Positions 5,064 through 38,084 of a stretch of 47,531 nucleotides of DNA are shown here, piece by piece; positions within the stretch are counted from its first letter, which is position 1, and every line of letters begins with the position of its first letter. The DNA is from Akkermansia muciniphila (GTDB lineage: Bacteria; Verrucomicrobiota; Verrucomicrobiia; Limisphaerales; BJHT01): positions 1 to 47,531 of the forward strand of contig CAMAUZ010000065.1 of the NCBI GenBank assembly GCA_945861535.1, in the 5' to 3' direction. The translations under genes were made by a program, and so were the position numbers. The notes under the pieces are model-generated. The model searched no databases. It saw only the letters and a program-made list of their open reading frames with translations, and was not told where the DNA came from.

Positions 5064-5840
5064 ATGGACCTCCTCTTCCTCTGCGGTTTCGCCTTCCTCG
5101 CCGGCCTGGTCGATTCGGTGGTCGGCGGCGGCGGGCTGATCCAGCTCCCGGCGCTGCTGCTCTTCCTCCCCGCGCCGCTCGCCGCGTCGCTGCCCGCGGT
5201 GTTCGGCACGAACAAACTGTCCTCGATCTGCGGCACCAGCATCGCCGTCGTGCAATACGCCCGGCGCATTCCGATTCAGTGGCGCGTCGTGCTCCCAGCG
5301 GCGGGCACGGCGTTTGTGTTCTCCTTCCTCGGTGCGCGCGCGGTCAGCGTGCTGCCCAAGGAATTCCTGCGTCCGCTGATTCTCGTGCTGCTCGTCGTGG
5401 TGGCCGTGTGGACCTACACGCAGAAAAACTGGGGCCAACTGCACGCCCCCAAACTCAGCGCCGCCGCCGGCCGCGCCTACGCCGTGCTCGTCGGCGCGAC
5501 GATCGGTTTCTACGACGGCTTCTTCGGACCTGGCACCGGGAGCTTCCTGATTTTCGCGTTCATCGGCCTGTTCGGCTTTGATTTCCTCAACGCCTCCGCC
5601 GGCGCCAAGGTCGTCAACTTCGCGACCAATCTCGCGGCGATCCTCTACTTCGGCGCGACCGACAAAATCTACTACGCCTACGCGCTGCCGATGGGCGTGT
5701 GCAACGTCCTCGGCTCGCTCGTCGGGACGCGCCTGGCCATGCTCAAGGGCAACCGCTTCGTGCGCGGCTTTTTCCTCTGCGTCGTCGCCGCGATCATCGT
5801 GCGGCTCGCGTTTGATCTCGTACCCGGCGTGCGGCGCTGA
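5064..5840 (+). CDS. TSUP (TauE/SafE) family membrane permease
   Basis: This 258-aa integral membrane protein is of the sulfite exporter TauE/SafE (TSUP) family, whose members move sulfur-containing or small organic anions across the inner membrane. The pattern is the familiar one. An N-terminal helix leads to GLVDSVVGGGGLIQ near residues 18-31, later helices follow, and a repeated motif occurs in the second half (GATIGFYDGFFGPGTGSFL). Gly-rich repeats of this kind mark the two homologous halves of the family. About seven to eight hydrophobic segments are visible. The ATG at 5064 is chosen over 5043 because the preceding codons lie inside a repeat arm. The substrate cannot be read from sequence, and no sulfonate or taurine genes lie nearby. 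Confidence 0.9.
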   Translation: MDLLFLCGFAFLAGLVDSVVGGGGLIQLPALLLFLPAPLAASLPAVFGTNKLSSICGTSIAVVQYARRIPIQWRVVLPAAGTAFVFSFLGARAVSVLPKEFLRPLILVLLVVVAVWTYTQKNWGQLHAPKLSAAAGRAYAVLVGATIGFYDGFFGPGTGSFLIFAFIGLFGFDFLNASAGAKVVNFATNLAAILYFGATDKIYYAYALPMGVCNVLGSLVGTRLAMLKGNRFVRGFFLCVVAAIIVRLAFDLVPGVRR

Positions 5841-5872
5841 ACGGGGACGACGCGCTGGGGAAGGCGCGGGGC

Positions 5873-5904
5873 GGGTACCGCAGGCGTCCTCGCCTGCGGT
5901 ACCC
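5873..5904. repeat. GGGTACCGCAGGCG palindrome
   Basis: GGGTACCGCAGGCG and CGCCTGCGGTACCC flank a four-base centre, forming a near-perfect 14-bp stem just after the TauE/SafE gene. No T-run follows. The same arm sequences bound a larger element at 45204-45311. From about 5951 to 5975 there is also one arm of the CCGCCTCCTC/GTCGGCGGCTAC repeat that is complete at 46588-46662. Confidence 0.8.
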
Positions 5905-5985
5905 GTGAGCAAGCGTACGTTGGCAGCCGGATGGAACGCACGCGAACGATGCGGGGCCGTCCGCCTCCTCACGTCGGCGGCTACT

Positions 5986-8154
5986 TCACACCCGCCCCGC
6001 GGGCAGGAGCCGCCCGAGGGCCTCGGCAAATTGCTCCAGCGTGTAGGGCTTGGTCATGGCACCGCAGAATCCGTGCTGCTGAAAATCCGCGACCGCCGGA
6101 TCGTGCGCCGAACCGCTCGAAACCAACGCCGGGAAGTCGGGCCGCAGTTCCCGCAGGCACCGGACCGCTTCCCGCCCGCCCATGCTGCCGGGCACGGTCA
6201 GGTCCAGAATCGCTCCGTCAAACGGGTCGCCGTGCTGGAGGGCCGTTTGAAACACCCGCACCGCATCTTCGCCGCGGTCCACAAAGTCGGCGCGATACCC
6301 CAGCCGCTGCAGCATCGCCGCCATCAGCGTCTGCAGCGCGTCGTCATCCTCGAGCACCAGGATGCGGCCGCGACGCGTGCTGGTCGCCGTCCGCTCGCTC
6401 GGCACGGGGGCCGCGGGGGTCTTGTCTGTCGCGGGCAAATGAATGTGGAACGTCGTCCCCTTCCCGAGTTCGGACGTGACGGTGATGCGGCCGCCGTGGT
6501 CACGGATGATCACGTCGCACATCGCCAGTCCCAGCCCGTTGCCGGATTTCTTAGTCGTGAAATAGGGATCAAAAATGCGCGGCAACGCCTCGGGGCTCAC
6601 ACCGCAACCCTCGTCGGCCACGGAAATCTGCACGTAGTTGCCGGGTGGCAGCGCATGGTTTTCCGGGCCGGTCACCACGCGGTTCACGGCGTGGATGCGC
6701 AGGTAGCCGCCGTGCGGCATGGCCTGCATCGCATTGATCACGAGGTTATGAATCACCTGATGAATCTGGCTGTTGTCCACCTCGACCGCCCACAGGTCAC
6801 GCGGCAGTTCGAACACCGGCCGGATGTGCGAGCCGTGCAAACCGAACCGCGCCGACTCGCGGATGGTTTCCTGCAAGCGCGCCGCGGTTTTGATCGGCGC
6901 GCCGCCCTTGGCGAATTTCATCAGCTGCCCGGTCAGCTCGCGCGCCTGCTGCGCCGCCCGCGCGGCCTCGCGCAGGTTCGCCGCGGCGGCGACCCGGTTC
7001 GGCAGGTTTTCATCCGCCAGCGAGACGTTGCCCATGATCACGGTCAGGATGTTGTTGAAATCATGCGCGATGCCCCCGGCGAGCACGCCCAGCGATTCGA
7101 TCTGGAGATGCTTGCGCGCCTCGGCGGTCAGGCGCTCGTGCTCGGTCATGTCCCGCACCACGAGCACGGCGCCCATGACGGTCTGGCCCGCGCGCTGGCG
7201 GAGCGGCGAGACCTTGAAGGCGACGACGCGTTCGCGCCCGTCGCGGGCCGGCAGCAGACTGTTCTGCGCCACGTCGGTCGCCGCGCCGCGGGTCAAGGCG
7301 GCCTCCAGAAAGCCGGCGTGCGGCTCGCGCCGGACGGCATTCAACGGGGAGAAGATCTCAGTTAACCCCCGCCCGGCGGCCTCCGCCTGCGACCACCCGG
7401 TCAACAGTTCGGCCACGGGATTCAGGAGCAACACGCGGCCCGCGGTGTCGGTCGTGATGACCCCGTCGCCGATGCACCGCAGAGTGACCCCGAGCCGTTC
7501 GGTCTCCTCCGCGAGCGCTTCCTGCGAGCCGCGGTGCCCGGCAATTTCGCGGCTGAGAAGTTCGTTCGCCTCGGTGAGTTCGATGGTCCGCTGGCGCACG
7601 CGTTCCTGCAGTTCCGTGTTGTGATTCTGCACCTCGGCGCGGAGCCGGAGATTTTCGATCGCATAGGAAACGCTCGAGAGAATCACCGCCACCCAGCCGG
7701 CGTGCGCCGGTTGCGTGAGGTCCGCCCCGGCGCTGCTGACGGCGGCAAACATGCCGGTCGTCCGCGCGCGGGTCCCGAGGCGATGGAGAATCGTGGGACC
7801 CAGGTGCTCGGGCCGCGTTCCGGTGGCGGGCACAAAGCGGCTGTGCCGGAGCGCCCAAGCGAAGGTGCCGGCCCGGATCGCGTCGTTCACGCGCCGCTGC
7901 ATCTCCCCACGGCTGGCCGCGGGCTGGACCAGTTGCACTTGAAAATCCCAGTCCGGCGGCTCGTTCAACAAAAACGCCACCGCGCGGAATCCGCCCAACC
8001 GGAGCAGACAGTGCGCCGCCAGTTCGAGCACCTCGGCGGCGGCCTGGCACTCCTGAATCTCGGCGTGAAACGTCTCGAGCGCGGCCATCAACTGCGGCCC
8101 GGGCGGCGGCGGTGGCGCGGGAGCAGCGGGGTGAAGGTGAGAGAGCGAAATCAT
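5986..8154 (-). CDS. Hybrid sensor histidine kinase with GAF-like, PAS and receiver domains
   Basis: This 722-aa cytoplasmic hybrid kinase has, in order, a GAF-like sensor region (about 25-165), a coiled coil (about 165-225), a PAS domain (about 225-340), and a phosphoacceptor segment with GGIAHDFNNIL (His364). A HATPase_c domain follows, with the N box (HNLVINAMQAM), G1 box (DEGCGVSP) and G2 box (GNGLGLAM). At the end is a receiver domain (about 600-718) with the phosphorylatable Asp in GAILDLTVPG and the conserved Lys in MTKPY. AHDFNNIL is typical of NtrB-like hybrid kinases. No transmembrane segment is seen, so the signal should be internal. It lies 23 bases after the HDOD gene in the same direction and is probably its operon partner. 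The output pathway is not in the window. Confidence 0.93.
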   Translation of the reverse strand: MISLSHLHPAAPAPPPPPGPQLMAALETFHAEIQECQAAAEVLELAAHCLLRLGGFRAVAFLLNEPPDWDFQVQLVQPAASRGEMQRRVNDAIRAGTFAWALRHSRFVPATGTRPEHLGPTILHRLGTRARTTGMFAAVSSAGADLTQPAHAGWVAVILSSVSYAIENLRLRAEVQNHNTELQERVRQRTIELTEANELLSREIAGHRGSQEALAEETERLGVTLRCIGDGVITTDTAGRVLLLNPVAELLTGWSQAEAAGRGLTEIFSPLNAVRREPHAGFLEAALTRGAATDVAQNSLLPARDGRERVVAFKVSPLRQRAGQTVMGAVLVVRDMTEHERLTAEARKHLQIESLGVLAGGIAHDFNNILTVIMGNVSLADENLPNRVAAAANLREAARAAQQARELTGQLMKFAKGGAPIKTAARLQETIRESARFGLHGSHIRPVFELPRDLWAVEVDNSQIHQVIHNLVINAMQAMPHGGYLRIHAVNRVVTGPENHALPPGNYVQISVADEGCGVSPEALPRIFDPYFTTKKSGNGLGLAMCDVIIRDHGGRITVTSELGKGTTFHIHLPATDKTPAAPVPSERTATSTRRGRILVLEDDDALQTLMAAMLQRLGYRADFVDRGEDAVRVFQTALQHGDPFDGAILDLTVPGSMGGREAVRCLRELRPDFPALVSSGSAHDPAVADFQQHGFCGAMTKPYTLEQFAEALGRLLPAGRV

Positions 8155-29773: not shown

Positions 29774-29932
29774 ATGCAATCGCGTCGTCTGCCATTGGCC
29801 GGCGGTGTGGTCCTGCTGCCGTTCGTGGCGGCGGGAACGGCCGAGGCCGTGCCGGCGAGATCGGCGCGCCGCGAGTCAGCGAGCGCTATTTGGGTGTCCC
29901 GCCAGTCGCCCGAGTTCTGGCGAGCGGGCTGA
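29774..29932 (+). pseudogene. Duplicated signal-peptide region of the DUF1549 gene
   Basis: The sequence from about 29740 closely matches that around 38400-38510, both upstream (GGCTGGCAGGATCG) and through the first 25 codons (MQSRRLP, then GVVLL, then FVAAGTA). Here it encodes 52 residues and a stop with nothing of the DUF1549 domain. It is a stray copy of a gene start, or of an intergenic repeat that has donated a start to the gene at 38426. It overlaps the end of the PAP2 gene on the other strand. Confidence 0.6.
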
Positions 29933-30647
29933 AACCGGACCTTGGTCCGGTCGCGAGCGAGGCGGGTAGTCGCGACTCCATGCGCCTCCAGATCAGCCAA
30001 CCGCCGGCCACGCCGATGATCGTGGCCACGACCACATCCGACAGGTGATGATAACCAGTGAAGACACGTGCCCAGCCCATGGCCAGGCCGAAGCCTACTC
30101 CCAGCCAACGTCCGCGACGCGTTCCCAGGATCAACGGCATGACAAATCCGACCGCCGCGCCGACATGGCCTGAGGGAAACGAGTTGAATTCCGAGCGCCC
30201 GATGTTCCAACAGCCATTGTGGTGCAGCCCGTACCAGCCTTGCGCGGTGGCGGCGTTTGGCCGAGTCCGTCCGCTCACCGAGCGGATGAGGGTCGCCGTC
30301 GCCCCGGTGGCTCCACAGGTCAATGCCATCGCGAGCGCCAGGGTTTCCAGACGACCTTGCTTCCACCACACGGCCGCGCCCCACGCGACCAACGCCGCCG
30401 CGAGGAGAAAATACCACTCGCCGTAACGCGTCACGAACCACGCCAGTGGCTTCCACTGGGAATCCGGATTGGCGCGGACCCAGGCGTCGATCGGGGCATC
30501 GCCCACGAACGCCAGCGCGACCGTGAGGAGGAGAATTGCCGCCCACGCAAAGAACACCGGCGGACGCAAGGCCCGCCAGCGCAGAGTTGCCACGCCGTCT
30601 CCGATCGTCCGAACCGCGCCGAGGTTGGTCGCTTGCATTGGGGACAT
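29886..30647 (-). CDS. PAP2 family membrane phosphatase
   Basis: This 253-aa membrane phosphatase of the PAP2 superfamily includes enzymes that dephosphorylate phosphatidic acid, undecaprenyl diphosphate or sphingolipid phosphates. The three active-site motifs are present: RSVSGRTRPN (with Arg in place of the usual leading Lys), SFPSGH, and RVFTGYHHLSDVV, the His acting as nucleophile support and the Asp completing the triad. About five to six membrane helices are visible. The C-terminus beyond GGWLIWRRMES is soluble and falls in the duplicated segment at 29774-29932, so the true 3' end may be partly replaced sequence. A role in lipid or undecaprenyl recycling is possible. Confidence 0.9.
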   Translation of the reverse strand: MSPMQATNLGAVRTIGDGVATLRWRALRPPVFFAWAAILLLTVALAFVGDAPIDAWVRANPDSQWKPLAWFVTRYGEWYFLLAAALVAWGAAVWWKQGRLETLALAMALTCGATGATATLIRSVSGRTRPNAATAQGWYGLHHNGCWNIGRSEFNSFPSGHVGAAVGFVMPLILGTRRGRWLGVGFGLAMGWARVFTGYHHLSDVVVATIIGVAGGWLIWRRMESRLPASLATGPRSGFSPLARTRATGGTPK

Positions 30648-31575: not shown

Positions 31576-31638
31576 GGCGGGCGGCGTGACCATTCCCCGC
31601 GGGTGCCGAAACCGCGCGCGACGGTGTTCCGATTCAGC

Positions 31639-33195
31639 ATGAAACTCAACGATCTGCGGCCCGACTCCGCGGAGCTTCGCGATCTGCACTGGCTGCGGCT
31701 GGGATACCTGCTCACGTTCGTCCTGCTGGCCGTGCGCCTCGCGTATCTCGCGTCGGGCCGGATCGAACTGTCCGAGGACGAAGCCTACCAGTGGCACTGG
31801 TCCAAACACCTTGCGCTTTCCTACTACAGCAAGCCGCCGATGATCGCCTACACGCAGTTCCTCGGCACCACGCTGTGGGGCGATAACGCGTTTGGCGTGC
31901 GGTTTTTCTCCCCGATTATCGCGGCCATTCTGTCGCTGCTGCTGTTGCGCTTCGTCGCCCGCGAACTCAACGGCCGTGCCGCCTGCTGCTTGATCGCCGC
32001 CATCTCCGTTACGCCGCTGATGGCCGTTGGCGCGACGCTGCTCACCGTTGATCCGCTCTCGGTGCTCTTCTGGACCGCGGCGTTGCTGGCCGGCTGGCGC
32101 GCGATGGAGCGCGACTCGCTCGCGCTGTGGGCGTGGACCGGCGTGTGGATGGGCCTGGGCTTCCTGAGCAAATACACCGAACTGTTCCAACTCGCATGCT
32201 GGGCAATTTTCTTCGCGCTCTGGCCTCCGGCGAGGCGGCATCTGCGGAAGCCCGGCCCGTGGCTGGCGCTCGCCATCAATCTGCTCGCGCTCGTTCCCGT
32301 GTACTTGTGGAACCGCGACCACGGCTGGGCCACGGCGGTCCATCTACAGGATCGCGCCGGACTGACCAGCGCGTGGCAGTTCACGCTCCGATACTGCAAT
32401 GATTTTCTGGCGGGTGAGCTGCTGCTGCTCAATCCGGTTTTCCTCGTCGCCTCGCTCTGGGCCGGCATCGCCTTCTGGCGGCGCTTCCGTGAACGGCCGC
32501 TGTGGCTTTATCTCTTCAGCATGGGTTTCCCGCTGTTCCTCGGCTACTGGCTGTACACTTTCCGCACCCGAGTGCTGCCCAACTGGATCGCCCCCGCCGT
32601 GCTCCCGATGTTTCTCCTGATGGTGTTCTACTGGGACGCGCGCTGGCGCGAGGGCTGCCGCCGGGTCCGGGGCTGGTTGATCGCCGGCCTGCTTGTGACC
32701 CTGCCAATTGTCGTCCTCATCCATGAAAGCAAGCTGGCGCAGAAAATCGCAGGCCGGCCGCTGCCCGAGCCGATCGATCCGATCACGCGGGTCCGGGGCT
32801 GGAGCGAAATGGCGCGGCTCGTCGGCCTCGAACGCGAGAAGCTGCAAGCGGAAGGGAAACCTGTCTTCATCATCGGCGCGCACTACGGGGTCACGTCGTT
32901 GATCTCATTTTACCTGCCGGAAGCACGCGCCGCCGTGACGACGGAGCCGTTCGTTTTCTATCAATCCACCGACCACCCCGACAACCAGTTCTACTTCTGG
33001 GAGAACTACGGGCAGCGCAAAGGTCAGAACGCCATTTACGCCCGGCTGATGCGGATCAACAGTCCCGACGCCCAGCCGCCCGAACGCCTCCGCGCCGAGT
33101 TCGCCACCATCACCGACCTCGGCCGCCGCGAAGTTTTCGACCAGGGCCGCGTCATCCACGCCATCCAACTCTTCGCCTGCCGGGAGCTGCACTGA
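31639..33195 (+). CDS. GT39/ArnT-type polyprenyl-dependent glycosyltransferase
   Basis: This 518-aa polytopic membrane enzyme belongs to the GT39 (PMT/ArnT-like) family, which moves sugars from a polyprenyl phosphate donor to lipid or protein acceptors at the outer face of the inner membrane. The first periplasmic loop carries ELSEDEAYQWHW, with the catalytic Asp/Glu pair, and a later SKPPMIAYTQF. About 11 to 13 hydrophobic segments fill residues 20-370, followed by a soluble C-terminal domain. ATG 31639 is preferred over the GTG at 31603, which adds only 12 residues. It is 63 bases after the barrel protein, in the same direction, and may share its transcript. Confidence 0.9.
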   Translation: MKLNDLRPDSAELRDLHWLRLGYLLTFVLLAVRLAYLASGRIELSEDEAYQWHWSKHLALSYYSKPPMIAYTQFLGTTLWGDNAFGVRFFSPIIAAILSLLLLRFVARELNGRAACCLIAAISVTPLMAVGATLLTVDPLSVLFWTAALLAGWRAMERDSLALWAWTGVWMGLGFLSKYTELFQLACWAIFFALWPPARRHLRKPGPWLALAINLLALVPVYLWNRDHGWATAVHLQDRAGLTSAWQFTLRYCNDFLAGELLLLNPVFLVASLWAGIAFWRRFRERPLWLYLFSMGFPLFLGYWLYTFRTRVLPNWIAPAVLPMFLLMVFYWDARWREGCRRVRGWLIAGLLVTLPIVVLIHESKLAQKIAGRPLPEPIDPITRVRGWSEMARLVGLEREKLQAEGKPVFIIGAHYGVTSLISFYLPEARAAVTTEPFVFYQSTDHPDNQFYFWENYGQRKGQNAIYARLMRINSPDAQPPERLRAEFATITDLGRREVFDQGRVIHAIQLFACRELH

Positions 33196-33270: not shown

Positions 33271-33450
33271 ATGAAGGAAACGAGTTTGCGAGGGAAACCA
33301 CCTGGTGGAGGAGCGGGCCGCGGGGCGGTCAAGCAGAGGTGGGAAACGCTCACCCCGGAGCAAAAGCAGGCCGTCGAGACGGTGGCTGCGGATATGTGGC
33401 CGCCGTTCTTAAAGGCAATCGCGAAGCAGCGCTTCCGCGAGAAATCGATT
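33271..33450 (+). pseudogene. Fragment of an ISL3-like transposase
   Basis: A short open stretch encodes RWETLTPEQKQAVETVAADM then WPPFLKAIAKQRF. The pattern 'L-T-P-x-Q-x-x-x-V-E-x-V-A-x-D-M-W' with a following 'A-I' is a signature of the DDE catalytic region in ISL3-family transposases. The rest of the element is gone and no inverted ends are seen. It lies between two convergent genes, so an insertion has decayed here. Confidence 0.55.
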
Positions 33451-33451
33451 C

Positions 33452-34636
33452 TCAATCAAGCGTCGTGTAAACCGTCTCGATGTCCTCGATAATCCTCGGC
33501 CAGTTCAGATGCGAGACGGATTGGCGTGCCCGGTGTCTCATCCCCGCCAAGTCCGTCGAGCGGCGGGCTAGTTGCGCCGCCATTTCGAGGAACTGAATCT
33601 CGTCGCCCCGCCGGGCCAGCACTCCGTTTACGCCCGACAGGATAAGCTCCCCTGCCGCAGCATGGTCATAAGCGACCACTGCCAAACCGCTGGCCATCGC
33701 CTCCGGAGTTACATTTCCAAACGTCTCGGTAAGGCTGGAAAAGAGAAACAAATCCCCGGAAGCATAGTGGCGTGCCAACTCGTTCCCGCGTTGATTGCCC
33801 GCGAAAATCGCGTCGGGACAACACTGCTCCAAATCCTTTCGTGCGGGACCGTCGCCGACAAAGACCAGTCTGCTTTCAGGTCGCTCCCGGCGAATCTTCT
33901 CGAAGGCATAGCACAGGAGAGAAAGGTTCTTCTCGCTCGCGAGTCGCCCGACATAAATCACGACCAGTGAGTTCGGAGCAGCCCCCCAAGAATCCCGGAG
34001 CGCCTGACATCGCTTGGCAGGATCGAAAAGCCGGGTGTCCACTCCCCGCGCCACGACGCGCAGATTGGCAAAGCCCTTGGCCCCCAGCTCGGCGGCCAAC
34101 CCGGAGGTGGGAACCATCGTGCATCGGGTCCGGTTGTGAAACCATCGCAGATAACCAATGATGGGACGGGCGAGCCAGCCGAATCCATAGTGCGCGCAGT
34201 AGGAATGAAAATTGGTGCGAAACTCGGAACACACGGGAATGCCAAGCCGGCGCGCAGCAATCAATGCTGACAGTCCCAAGGGGCCTTCGGTGACGATGTG
34301 AACCACGTCGGGCCGTTGCGCCCGCCATAGTGTCGTGAGCCGGTGCATCGCAGGCAGTCCCATCCTAAGCTGCCCGTATCTTGGAATCGGCACCCCCGCG
34401 ACAAACACCTCGCGAAAGCAGTAGTCTGATGGCATTGCGGCGGGCACTACCTGGTTTGGTCGGATGAGCGTAAGCTCGTGTCCTTCCCGATGCAGCCCCT
34501 GGACCACCTTGGCGATGGTCTGGGCCACACCATTGACTTCGGGCGGAAAGGTTTCCGTGACCACCGCCAGCCGGAGGCGCCTTTTGGCAATCCGGTATTC
34601 GGTTCGCACTGGCTCCATCACAGCAGGGTAGCTCAT
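33452..34636 (-). CDS. GT4 family glycosyltransferase
   Basis: This 394-aa GT-B fold glycosyltransferase is of family GT4, similar to enzymes that glycosylate diacylglycerol or polyprenyl carriers. The N-terminal acceptor domain begins LAVVTETFPPEVNGVAQTI and has DVVHIVTEGPLGL and FRTNFHSYCAHYG. The C-terminal donor domain has VIYVGRLASEKNLSLL, VFVGDGPARKDLE, and FSSLTETFGNVTPEAMASG, with the EX7E pair at its end. ATG 34636 is chosen; ATG 34618 is an alternative, and the longer frame to 34867 reaches a region without domain character. It is divergent from the membrane protein at 34839. The lipid and sugar are not determined. Confidence 0.9.
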   Translation of the reverse strand: MSYPAVMEPVRTEYRIAKRRLRLAVVTETFPPEVNGVAQTIAKVVQGLHREGHELTLIRPNQVVPAAMPSDYCFREVFVAGVPIPRYGQLRMGLPAMHRLTTLWRAQRPDVVHIVTEGPLGLSALIAARRLGIPVCSEFRTNFHSYCAHYGFGWLARPIIGYLRWFHNRTRCTMVPTSGLAAELGAKGFANLRVVARGVDTRLFDPAKRCQALRDSWGAAPNSLVVIYVGRLASEKNLSLLCYAFEKIRRERPESRLVFVGDGPARKDLEQCCPDAIFAGNQRGNELARHYASGDLFLFSSLTETFGNVTPEAMASGLAVVAYDHAAAGELILSGVNGVLARRGDEIQFLEMAAQLARRSTDLAGMRHRARQSVSHLNWPRIIEDIETVYTTLD

Positions 34637-34838
34637 GTCGAAAGTCTTGCGTGAACGAGTCACAAACTCATGCCGCGCGAGTGACAATTGCCAAACGACC
34701 GGCCTCCCGGACCGGATTGTTTCACCGAGTTTTCCATGCTGACACGCCCGCGTAACCCGCCCCCTAGATATTTGATCCCGCAGGCCGCCGACCACCACCG
34801 GTTGCGGCAACCGTTTCAGCAACATTAACAGGCCAGCT

Positions 34839-35468
34839 ATGAATAAATTCCTGCAATGCCTCCACACTCAACGAATGGACGATCACAGATACTATCACCA
34901 TAGCCGCATCAACCAGTCGCTGCATTTCATCAGCGCAATCAGCTTCGTGGTCGCGTATGCCTGCCTGTTCTTCGAGCCTGCCTGGGCGGCTCTCATCGCC
35001 TGGTTTATTGCCATGCCCAGCCGCCAGAGCGGGCATTTCTTCTTTGAACCCCGGTGCTATGACGAGGTAAATCAGGCCACCCACGAACACAAGGAAGACA
35101 TCAAGCTGGGATACAACCTCCGACGCAAAGTCGTGTTGATGACGCTCTGGGCATTGCTTCCGGTCACGCTCTATTTTAATCGCAGCTTTTTCGGTCTCTT
35201 TGAAACCACGGGAACCTGGCAGAACTACCTCCACTCATTGGGGATTCTGTGGTTGTGGCTAGGGGCGGGTGGCCTGGTGTTCCGAACCATCCATCTGTTT
35301 TTCCTGCAAGACATGCAGACCGGGCTGGTGTGGATGACCAAGATTCTCACCGATCCTTTCAATGACATCAAACTCTACCACAAAGCCCCGCTCTACCTCC
35401 TGCGCGGCGAGTTGATTGACCCGATGGATCACGTTCGGGAAAAACATCGCGGCTCGTCGCCTGCCTGA
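34839..35468 (+). CDS. His-rich integral membrane protein (possible lipid hydroxylase)
   Basis: This 209-aa protein has four or so membrane segments and several conserved-looking histidines: HHSRINQSLHF, MPSRQSGHFFFEP, ATHEHKEDIKLG, RTIHLFF and LYHKAPLY. His clusters between membrane helices suggest a di-iron fatty-acid hydroxylase or Mpo1-type dioxygenase, but no exact motif is met, so the enzyme class is inference. It lies between the GT4 gene (divergent) and the aminotransferase gene (convergent, one base apart). These, with the decarboxylase-like gene at 37188, look like one lipid-modification set. Confidence 0.75.
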   Translation: MNKFLQCLHTQRMDDHRYYHHSRINQSLHFISAISFVVAYACLFFEPAWAALIAWFIAMPSRQSGHFFFEPRCYDEVNQATHEHKEDIKLGYNLRRKVVLMTLWALLPVTLYFNRSFFGLFETTGTWQNYLHSLGILWLWLGAGGLVFRTIHLFFLQDMQTGLVWMTKILTDPFNDIKLYHKAPLYLLRGELIDPMDHVREKHRGSSPA

Positions 35469-35469
35469 G

Positions 35470-37128
35470 TCACCAGCCGAAGCGATGCCGCAGCATCTCG
35501 CGAAGAATCCCGCGTCGGATCGCCTTGTTGGTCAGCGCGGGGTTCGGCTGCCACCAACCATCCTCAACCATGTCTCGCGCGGCCAGCACGAACCGCTGCA
35601 TCACCTCGGCAAAGTCTTGGTCCGTATAATTCAAGCTGAAGATAAACCGGCCGGTGCCAACCCAGCTTAGTGCCAGTCCCTGGGCACGAAGGTAGAACTG
35701 AAACATCCAATTGTAACGAGAAGGCTGCTCATAGACTACCGTCCAGATAGTCGAAAGGTTCACCACGCGGGCAGGGAGGTTTTCCTTGGCCAAGGTGGTG
35801 TTCAATCGTTCCGCCCGCTCATTCCAGGTCGCGTCCAGATTCCGGTACAGCGCAAGGATCTCGGGCGATTCGGCCTGTTCCAGAAATGTCGCCATCGAAG
35901 TCATCACATAGGGATGAGAGTTGAAGGTGCCGCGGGCAAAGCAGATGTCGGCCGGACGTTCGGCATTGAACCGGCGCATCAGGTTGTGGCGTCCGCACAG
36001 CACCCCGATCGGGAGTCCGCCCGCGATGGTTTTCCCGTAAGTCACCAGGTCAGCCTGGATTCCGAAATACTCTTGCGCCCCGCGTGGCGCGAGCCGGAAG
36101 CCAACAAAGACCTCGTCGAGTATCAGGATGATACCGCGCTCCGTGCAGACTTCGCGCAGCGCCTTGAGCCAACGCGTGTAAGCGGGCCGGTCGAATGCGG
36201 CCTTGCGACCACTGTCCACCAAGGTCGAGTCACCGGCGGCGGCCGAATTCGGATGCAAGGCCTGCAAGGGATTGACCAGCACGCAGGCTATGTCAGTGCG
36301 GGTTCGAAGCACATGCAGGGCCGCCGGGTCCATGTCCTCGAGCGTATAGGTGTGGCGGGGGGAGGCCGGATTGCCGGGACCTGGTTGAACGTCGTCCCAC
36401 CAGCCATGGTACGCACCGCAGAACCGGACCAGATGCGAGCGCCGGGTATGATACCGGGCCAGCCTCACGGCCTGCATGACTGCCTCGGTGCCCGACATGT
36501 GAAAGGAGACTTCGTCAAGGCCCGAAAGAACCCGCAACCTTTCCACGTTGCCGGCCACGCAGCGGTGATACGATCCCAAGACCGGTCCGAGTGCTTCGGC
36601 CCGGGCCGCGCCCTCGCGGATGCAGGCCTTGTAGAAGTCCACCCCGAACACATTCACGCCATAAGAGCCGGTGAGATCGTAATATTGATTGCCGTCGAGA
36701 TCTTCGACGGTGACGCCGTGGGCGGACTCTACAAAAGCACCTATCTGGAGATGTTCGCGGCAGTAGGGACTGAATTGGAAGGGCACCCGATAGGCGCCCG
36801 TGAATTGCAGGTCCGAGATGCTCTCACGGGCCTGGGCGGTGAGGGCGAGCGATTTCGGACAGCGTTCGCGAAGCATGGTTGCGAGACGTTGAAATCCGCG
36901 TTTACGCCGCCCAACCACGTCCTTGGGAGCACTGTCCGCGTTGAAGAATTCTTCCGGTCCGTAGAAGTAACCTGGAACCAAGGATGCGAACCGCTTGGCC
37001 ATCGTGGAGTGGCCGGTGAGCGAGCGATGCTTCGCCCGCGAGAGTTCCAGACGCCGCCTGACTCGGGGCAGGATGACTGCCGCCGCTCCGACCACCAGGG
37101 CACCTATTACCAGCTCATGATTCGTCAT
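35470..37128 (-). CDS. Membrane-anchored class III PLP aminotransferase
   Basis: This 552-aa protein has one N-terminal hydrophobic segment (LVIGALVVGAAAVILP, residues about 6-21) and an Arg-rich linker. From about residue 110 a class III aminotransferase follows, similar to glutamate-1-semialdehyde aminomutase. The domain shows NQYYDLTGSYGVNVFG, SGTEAVMQAVRLAR, FCGAYHGWWDD, LILDEVFVGFR, and the PLP lysine in LVTYGKTIAGGLPIG. A membrane anchor on such an enzyme is unusual and suggests a lipid or membrane-bound substrate. It is divergent from the decarboxylase-like gene with 59 bases between, a likely shared promoter region. Confidence 0.9.
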   Translation of the reverse strand: MTNHELVIGALVVGAAAVILPRVRRRLELSRAKHRSLTGHSTMAKRFASLVPGYFYGPEEFFNADSAPKDVVGRRKRGFQRLATMLRERCPKSLALTAQARESISDLQFTGAYRVPFQFSPYCREHLQIGAFVESAHGVTVEDLDGNQYYDLTGSYGVNVFGVDFYKACIREGAARAEALGPVLGSYHRCVAGNVERLRVLSGLDEVSFHMSGTEAVMQAVRLARYHTRRSHLVRFCGAYHGWWDDVQPGPGNPASPRHTYTLEDMDPAALHVLRTRTDIACVLVNPLQALHPNSAAAGDSTLVDSGRKAAFDRPAYTRWLKALREVCTERGIILILDEVFVGFRLAPRGAQEYFGIQADLVTYGKTIAGGLPIGVLCGRHNLMRRFNAERPADICFARGTFNSHPYVMTSMATFLEQAESPEILALYRNLDATWNERAERLNTTLAKENLPARVVNLSTIWTVVYEQPSRYNWMFQFYLRAQGLALSWVGTGRFIFSLNYTDQDFAEVMQRFVLAARDMVEDGWWQPNPALTNKAIRRGILREMLRHRFGW

Positions 37129-37187
37129 GTTTTGTCGGGGTTGCTAGTCATGGGGGCTGGGGGTGCATTCAGTCTCAGATTGGACCT

Positions 37188-38084
37188 ATGAATGCCAAAC
37201 GTCTTCGGGATCGGATTTTTCAACAGGAGGACCTCAATTTCCTCCTGACCAACCGGATTCCCCGCGTCCTGGCGACCCGGTTCATGGGTTGGTATAGCAA
37301 GATCGAGCTGCCGGTGGTGCGCGATCTGTCCCTGTCCGCCTGGAAGCTGTTTACCGACCTGGATCTGAGTGATGCCAAAAAGGAGCACTTTACGAGCGTG
37401 CATGACTGTTTCACCCGGGAGCTTAAACCGGGAGCCCGGGTCATTGACCCCGATCCTTGCGCGCTCACCAGTCCGTGCGACGCCATCGTGGGGCAATGTG
37501 GCCGGATTCAAGGGCAGCAAATTTTTCAAGCCAAAGGCTTTCCCTATTCGGTGACGGAATTGTTCGGAAATGGTGACGAATCGGCAAAATATGCGGACGG
37601 GTGTTACGCGACGCTCCGGCTGCGCTCGAACATGTATCACCGCTTTCATGCCCCTTACGATTGCCGCGTCGGCCACGTTACTTATATCTCCGGCGATACG
37701 TGGAACGTGAACCCCATTGCCCTCAAACGCGTGGAGCGATTGTTTTGCAAGAATGAACGTGTGGCCATTCGTTGCGAGCTGCCGTCCGGCGGGCAGACGT
37801 TTGCCCTGGTCGCGGTGGCCGCGGTGTTGGTGGCCAGTGTCCGGCTGCATTGTCTGGGAGAACTCTTTCATCCGCGCTATACCGGGCCGCAGGAGCTTGC
37901 ATGTGACGCAACTTATTCCAAAGGCCAGGAGCTGGGCTGGTTCCAGCACGGCTCCACAATCATCATGTTTGCGCCCCGGGGGTTTGACCTGGCGGAGGGA
38001 ATTGAAGCGGGCGTGGAGATCCGGATGGGGCGCAGGTTGTTGACTCGCCCTGCGACTGGAGACACAACGCTTCGAGACAGCTAG
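37188..38084 (+). CDS. Phosphatidylserine decarboxylase-like enzyme
   Basis: This 298-aa protein of the phosphatidylserine decarboxylase family forms a pyruvoyl cofactor by self-cleavage at a serine and makes phosphatidylethanolamine. LTSPCDAIVGQCG carries the family Asp, SNMYHRFHAPYDCRV the His, and WFQHGSTIIMF the cleavage serine within HGST instead of the usual LGST. An N-terminal region and a hydrophobic stretch (FALVAVAAVLVASV) support membrane association. It lies beside an aminotransferase and other lipid-type genes rather than a phosphatidylserine synthase, so its substrate may be a different serine-like lipid head group. That is inference. Confidence 0.88.
   Translation: MNAKRLRDRIFQQEDLNFLLTNRIPRVLATRFMGWYSKIELPVVRDLSLSAWKLFTDLDLSDAKKEHFTSVHDCFTRELKPGARVIDPDPCALTSPCDAIVGQCGRIQGQQIFQAKGFPYSVTELFGNGDESAKYADGCYATLRLRSNMYHRFHAPYDCRVGHVTYISGDTWNVNPIALKRVERLFCKNERVAIRCELPSGGQTFALVAVAAVLVASVRLHCLGELFHPRYTGPQELACDATYSKGQELGWFQHGSTIIMFAPRGFDLAEGIEAGVEIRMGRRLLTRPATGDTTLRDS

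Follow-up and report, generated by a model that had tools for sequence, protein, structure and literature searches.

A transferred gene island in a verrucomicrobial genome and its proteobacterial counterparts, a putative phosphate-starvation lipid-remodelling module

Layout of the island

We analysed a 47,531-nucleotide stretch of verrucomicrobial DNA (the window; contig CAMAUZ010000065.1 of assembly GCA_945861535.1, filed under Akkermansia muciniphila and placed by GTDB in the order Limisphaerales), in which positions 33452-38084 hold an island of four intact genes in alternating orientation. These encode a GT4 glycosyltransferase (33452..34635, minus strand), an Mpo1-like multi-helix membrane protein (34839..35468, plus strand), a class III aminotransferase (AT) that resembles glutamate-1-semialdehyde aminomutase (GSAM) and carries an N-terminal hydrophobic anchor (35470..37128, minus strand), and a second, module-specific pyruvoyl decarboxylase of the phosphatidylserine decarboxylase (PSD) family (37188..38084, plus strand). 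The AT and Mpo1-like genes converge, with their stops 1 bp apart, and two divergent promoter regions separate the starts of PSD and AT by ~60 bp (37129..37187) and those of Mpo1-like and GT4 by ~200 bp (34636..34838). The true GT4 start is probably 34635, because the listed 471-aa open reading frame (ORF) overlaps the divergent Mpo1-like gene.

The ORFs and family matches agree with the gene set, spacings and alternating orientation that a sequence-only reading of this DNA had described, including a 'His-rich multi-helix membrane protein' that can now be named Mpo1-like (PF06127). That reading had also remarked on the lack of a neighbouring phosphatidylserine synthase; no PF01066 gene (CDP-alcohol phosphatidyltransferase, the pssA family) is present in the window, and the three in this genome are on other contigs.

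Core genes and their distribution

Core genes in the loci of relatives were located by tblastn. PSD, AT and Mpo1-like genes occur together in ~100 loci, mostly in Proteobacteria, and in all 80 GTDB loci the three are adjacent to the extent of the contigs, in several gene orders. The usual order is PSD (reverse), AT (forward) and Mpo1-like (reverse), with GT4 (forward) as a possible fourth gene, and three loci have a unidirectional core in the order Mpo1-AT-PSD. A variant operon, AT-[large GT4 fusion]-PSD-Mpo1, is found in loci L139, L141, L144, L145 and L146, and in the most distant locus, L148, the AT and Mpo1 domains are fused in a single 738-aa ORF that retains the Mpo1 histidine motifs. 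Such fusion and rearrangement without separation argue that the three proteins serve one pathway.

Co-occurrence across genomes gives the same picture. In an even draw of 397 Pseudomonadota genomes, AT was present in 28 and the Mpo1-like gene in 27, the latter never alone; the sole mismatch, genome G583, has a 4.4-kb contig that ends after AT. By these comparisons of sequence and gene order, PSD-like, AT and Mpo1-like genes are shown to behave as an inseparable core. We therefore reject a chance neighbourhood, since the core genes are next to one another in each of the 80 loci as far as the contigs extend and AT and Mpo1-like genes track each other across genomes, and the proposal that the island's genes form a unit is borne out by both lines of evidence. 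The opposite case foreseen in the sequence-only reading, in which this would be the genome's only psd and the genes would not co-occur in relatives, is contradicted on both halves.

The decarboxylase

The window PSD matches PF02666 at 188.5 bits (cut-off 22) and TIGR00163 at 150.8 bits (cut-off 111.75). Like Escherichia coli Psd, it belongs to the TIGR00163 family and has the pyruvoyl cleavage site GST and both active-site histidines (here H151 and H154); the HGST noted earlier at the cleavage site lies at residues 254-257, with S256 as the cleavage serine. It differs from the E. coli enzyme in this HGST and in having R144, M149 and N173 in place of Y137, D142 and S166. These features extend to the whole module family, where HGST is present in nearly all 80 aligned PSDs, equivalents of H144 and H147 in all 103 readable sequences, and R, M and N at E. 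coli positions 137, 142 and 166 in the same 103 with at most one exception per position. Among the housekeeping PSDs of nine carriers and this genome, D142 and S166 are found in 10/10 and Y137 in 9/10. The exception is the housekeeping PSD of this genome itself, which has R137, so ordinary PSDs can have an arginine at this position too.

In the E. coli enzyme, residues Y137 and S166 and the backbone of V167 touch the phosphate of phosphatidylethanolamine (PE), H144 recognises the carboxylate, and self-cleavage is driven by D90/D142-H144-S254 (PMC7952604). The alignments thus indicate that the module PSD keeps its catalytic residues and is altered in a fixed manner on the phosphate side of the pocket. 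Such a pocket would fit a different head group but is not proof of one.

The module PSD is also an extra copy beside a housekeeping psd. The second PSD of this genome lies on contig 3 and has the motif GGSS, and exactly two PSDs are present in 15/15 other module-bearing genomes searched. The island enzyme as the genome's only ordinary psd is thereby rejected, and the earlier distinction between it and the housekeeping psd holds in every carrier searched. A 'second psd' in a genome should accordingly not be taken as ordinary PE synthesis.

The aminotransferase and the Mpo1-like protein

The AT matches Aminotran_3 (PF00202) at 117 bits, its pyridoxal phosphate (PLP) lysine, K366 in TYGK, is invariant, and the motifs MSGTEA and DEVF are intact in the window copy. 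Its score against the HemL equivalog TIGR00713 (171.7 bits) falls far short of the cut-off of 527.3. By sequence, its closest class III PLP-fold relatives are GSAM and the aminotransferase domain of mycosubtilin synthase (6kfm), from which it differs in having an N-terminal membrane anchor and an extra N-terminal region of ~100 residues.

PF06127 is the sole Pfam family found for the Mpo1-like protein and is matched by 18/18 relatives at E<=0.01. The conserved motifs are DDHRxYHHxRxNQxLH and RQxGHFFFEP. With yeast Mpo1, a 2-hydroxy fatty acid dioxygenase of PF06127, the module protein shares the core histidine-containing motif region, but it is about twice the length of the profile, has a conserved C-terminal part and scores at rather than above the cut-off. 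We regard it as a candidate Fe(II) oxygenase, with a 2-hydroxy-acid-like lipid as its putative substrate.

Promoters and phosphate-starvation neighbours

When the two divergent promoters were scored with a PhoB half-site matrix, pairs of high-scoring half-sites lay exactly 11 bp apart in 35 of 77 PSD/AT regions (0-3 at other spacings) and in 25 of 49 Mpo1/GT4 regions (0-5 at other spacings). A set dereplicated at 80% AT identity gave 18/39 (0-1 at other spacings) and 16/33 (0-5 at other spacings), respectively. The best PhoB-like site of the whole locus fell within the two short divergent regions in 41 of 73 loci, and the repeat result was reproduced in a separately drawn sample that included L148. 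PhoB-box-like 11-bp repeats, predicted at both divergent promoters of the proteobacterial module, are the new element here.

Neighbouring genes in two loci point to phosphate starvation as well. In L016 the neighbours include pstB, other ORFs arranged as is usual for pst, and a PlcP-like gene. The L148 fusion is surrounded by genes for a calcineurin-like, PlcP-like phosphoesterase and a methyltransferase, by a BtaA-family gene (DUF3419, 369 bits), and by genes for an Agt-like GT4 and an alkaline phosphatase; this set is similar to the Pho-box-bearing clusters plcP-btaAB and plcP-agt (PMC4796936) and to the plcP-agt operon (PMC9239053). Positions 3822-13024 of L148 form a compact phosphate-starvation lipid island, and no PSD was found in the L148 sequence covered. 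In L016, from the Betaproteobacterium UKL13-2, a distant DUF3419 (BtaA-family) gene (5130-6230) lies near the module PSD, as do PqqC/TenA-like and acetyltransferase-like genes, both judged by sequence.

PlcP and a possible substitute

A PlcP-like gene is present in 22 of 28 proteobacterial carriers and in 155 of 369 non-carriers (Fisher p=2e-4), and it lies near the module in ~15 loci. All six carriers that lack it hold the PHP-like/GT4 operon variant, of which G583 shows only the start of the fusion. With this variant set aside, the comparison becomes 22/22 carriers against 155/369 non-carriers (p=1e-8). From these gene contents, the proteobacterial trio appears to be accompanied in every case by an activity that could remove a phosphorylated head group.

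The fusion protein of the variant (L145 2344-5025, with homologues in L139, L141, L144 and L146 and a start also in L113) is ~890-960 aa long and is encoded between AT and PSD. It has a PHP-phosphoesterase-like N-terminus and a GT4 C-terminus and might combine PlcP and Agt in one protein. Its N-terminal half gave no Pfam or PDB match, and the PHP call relies on D-x-HCHD, TNHNN, AEFTC, LPHP and GGxDDHxG, conserved motifs that we take to be those of that family.

Accessory genes

The window GT4 has profile matches and a 64-67% identical orthologue in L004/L005. The curated models that come nearest, both far above its scores in their cut-offs, are those for GlcN-PG synthase (132 bits against 480) and monoglucosyl-DAG synthase (101 bits against 400), which would make it a lipid-type enzyme outside any named family. 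One GT4 type accompanies the core in Betaproteobacteria and Verrucomicrobia, and another type together with a Pmt-like methyltransferase does so in Bradyrhizobium and relatives; GT4 is a replaceable accessory outside the core.

The Pmt-like gene adjoins the Mpo1-like gene in Bradyrhizobium and other Alphaproteobacteria, and its product scores 133 bits to the phospholipid N-methyltransferase PmtA, under the PmtA cut-off. The two genes are directly side by side in L030, L036, L052, L060 and other Rhizobiales loci. This module-linked gene may be one of the several known Bradyrhizobium Pmt homologues; if so, one of those would be connected with phosphate starvation.

LplT, NUDIX, NMT1 and DUF2147 neighbours were rejected as partners, their presence tracking genus-level context. 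Just to the left of the window's island, outside the conserved module, a PAP2-type phosphatase (29886-30647, minus strand) and a PMT_2/ArnT-like glycosyltransferase (31603-33195, plus strand) could have lipids, or sugars linked to lipids, as substrates.

Horizontal transfer

The AT is present in 2/58 genomes of the same order, this one included, and in 1/387 Verrucomicrobiota genomes, namely this one. Phylogenetically, the window copy falls with L003, L004 and L005 (100/100) within a radiation made up mainly of Betaproteobacteria, and the verrucomicrobial rows require at least three label changes. No flanks in common with the window outside the four genes were found in L003-L005, L058, L077 or L149. 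The set is rare in the order and its flanks are not common to carriers, so the island moves as a unit, also from one phylum to another. Its GC content is 59.1% against 65-66% on both sides, and its third-position GC (GC3) is also lower. The sequence-only reading had pointed to a transposase scrap at the left edge as consistent with transfer; the scrap is real, an ISL3-family remnant (33277..33480, plus strand) that enters the GT4 gene at its 3' end and matches PF01610 (DDE_Tnp_ISL3) over 35 residues at E=7.6e-5, barely above the cut-off. Transfer itself is supported by the rarity in the order, the tree placement and the unshared flanks.

The related loci L004 and L005 retain the four-gene set, with 64-85% protein identity, in other genomic contexts, a persistence that implies selection. 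The window's four genes are intact and acquired. The records of L005 and L043 are titled as Klebsiella pneumoniae and Chitinophaga pinensis metagenome-assembled genomes and hold verrucomicrobial-type and betaproteobacterial-type copies of the module, respectively; these titles are probably the result of mis-binning or mis-naming.

Interpretation and alternatives

Taken together, the gene content and promoter patterns make it reasonably probable, in our view, that these genes represent a mobile module for lipid remodelling of the phosphate-starvation type, whose products make or convert an amino head group. In the proteobacterial setting, a PlcP-like phosphoesterase or the PHP-like domain would remove phosphorylated head groups from phospholipids, GT4 would put sugars on the resulting diacylglycerol, and the amino head group made by the trio would replace PE or phosphatidylcholine (PC) during phosphate shortage. 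Known family chemistries suggest an order of steps. The Mpo1-like oxygenase would first oxidise a lipid-linked 2-hydroxy acid to a keto acid, the anchored AT would convert this to an amino acid, the PSD-like pyruvoyl enzyme would decarboxylate the amino acid to an amine and, in Alphaproteobacteria, the Pmt-like enzyme would N-methylate the amine. We consider this exact order, from oxygenase through AT and pyruvoyl enzyme to the Pmt-like enzyme, unlikely. The idea of an undescribed phosphorus-free aminolipid class, in which a repurposed phosphatidylserine (PS) decarboxylase fed by AT and the Mpo1-like oxygenase would repeat the steps from serine to ethanolamine (and on to choline) on a phosphate-free lipid as a mirror of the PS-PE-PC route, spread between phyla by transfer, is likewise speculative and on present evidence unlikely.

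The sequence-only reading had proposed that the island builds or trims an amino-containing lipid head group. The link to lipid head groups is supported, GT4 does not belong to the core, and the exact aminolipid or glycolipid chemistry is a matter of inference. What that reading had missed is the purpose of the unit, to which the proteobacterial promoters and neighbours point, namely a response to phosphate starvation.

Several observations weigh against the remodelling interpretation. The module PSD passes the curated PS_decarb model and may therefore simply decarboxylate PS. The Mpo1-like protein scores 23.2 bits against the PF06127 gathering cut-off of 24, 0.8 under, and its predicted helical fold (pLDDT 77) gave no informative match: Foldseek returned nothing at E<=0.001, and VIA-align gave no Z >=5. 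The PhoB matrix follows the general consensus and was not trained on these genomes, and some carriers (L140, L142 and L146) have no box. PlcP and Agt identities follow from homology and synteny, not from comparison with a characterised sequence. No close PlcP homologue was found at E<=1e-15 in the window genome (G000) or in the verrucomicrobial carrier G014, and neither has a clear Pho box. In the window, the AT/PSD region has no detected PhoB-like repeat (1.7 bits, shuffle p=0.7) and the GT4/Mpo1-like region has only a weak PhoB-like site (7.7 bits, shuffle p=0.17). As far as promoter and gene-content evidence goes, the phosphate link is shown for Proteobacteria only.

The strongest alternative, which we nevertheless think unlikely, is that the module degrades aminophospholipids under phosphate starvation. 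The second PSD would then convert PS to PE, AT would remove or transaminate the ethanolamine amine or act as a lyase, PlcP or PHP would free diacylglycerol, and GT4 would recycle this into glycolipid. Ethanolamine-phosphate phospho-lyase is a class III enzyme that acts as a lyase. The Pho boxes and the PSD score above the PS_decarb cut-off are as expected of such a pathway, and so is the finding that each of the 28 sampled carriers has either a PlcP-like gene or the PHP-like/GT4 variant. However, every carrier searched has a housekeeping PSD, and a second enzyme for the same substrate is hard to justify; AT resembles GSAM and the mycosubtilin aminotransferase rather than a phospho-lyase, and the Pmt-like enzymes adjoining the core point to synthesis.

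It is also conceivable, but very unlikely, that the island is transferred cargo now unused in this genome, consisting of intact genes without their proteobacterial regulation. The window without a clear Pho box, the genome without a close PlcP homologue, the deviating GC and GC3, the ISL3 scrap at the edge and the rarity in the order are all compatible with disuse. All four ORFs are nevertheless full length with conserved catalytic motifs, and the selection implied by L004 and L005 argues against it. Least probable of all is ordinary phospholipid supply, in which an extra PSD (and Pmt) would boost PE or PC and AT and Mpo1-like genes would be unrelated, as the curated PSD score and the alphaproteobacterial Pmt-like neighbour might suggest; PSD, AT and Mpo1 are hardly ever separate in the loci covered, AT and Mpo1-like genes track by genome and are fused once, the PSD pocket has diverged, and making more phospholipid from a phosphate-starvation promoter would be paradoxical.

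Relation to known lipid-remodelling systems

Bacteria short of phosphate swap phospholipids for phosphorus-free lipids. The remodelling interpretation would place the module beside PlcP-Agt and PlcP-BtaAB, which are established systems of this kind (PMC4796936, PMC9239053). With PlcP-Agt of Phaeobacter, Pelagibacter and Methylosinus it shares Pho-box promoters and the combination of a phosphoesterase with a GT4, and it would also share the replacement of phospholipid under phosphate limitation (PMC4796936, PMC9239053). It differs in that the window island has no plcP and that the PSD-like/AT/Mpo1-like core is absent from the described pathway. With the synthesis of the betaine lipid DGTS by BtaA and BtaB it would share an N-methylated amino head group on diacylglycerol under phosphate starvation; the L148 fusion has both a BtaA-family gene and a methyltransferase as neighbours, and the distant DUF3419 gene lies near the L016 PSD. 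However, the chemistry of AT, PSD and Mpo1 is different, and DGTS/BtaA was rejected as a general partner, since a DUF3419/BtaA-family gene is present in only 3/27 module carriers and absent from the other 24.

Phosphate-starvation lipid remodelling is known, but the PSD-AT-Mpo1-like set was not found in any version in the open-licence literature, nor was a description of the module, which is not proof of its being undescribed. The cluster probably builds a phosphate-sparing membrane lipid of an undescribed kind. Several lipids of this type, DGTA and 'putative aminolipids' among them, have been observed without known genes (PMC4796936). A promoter-marked, conserved module in ~7% of the sampled Pseudomonadota genomes, with the cultivated genera Bradyrhizobium, Variovorax and Methyloversatilis among its carriers, is a directly testable candidate for these gene-orphan lipids, and the verrucomicrobial island suggests an imported phosphate economy.

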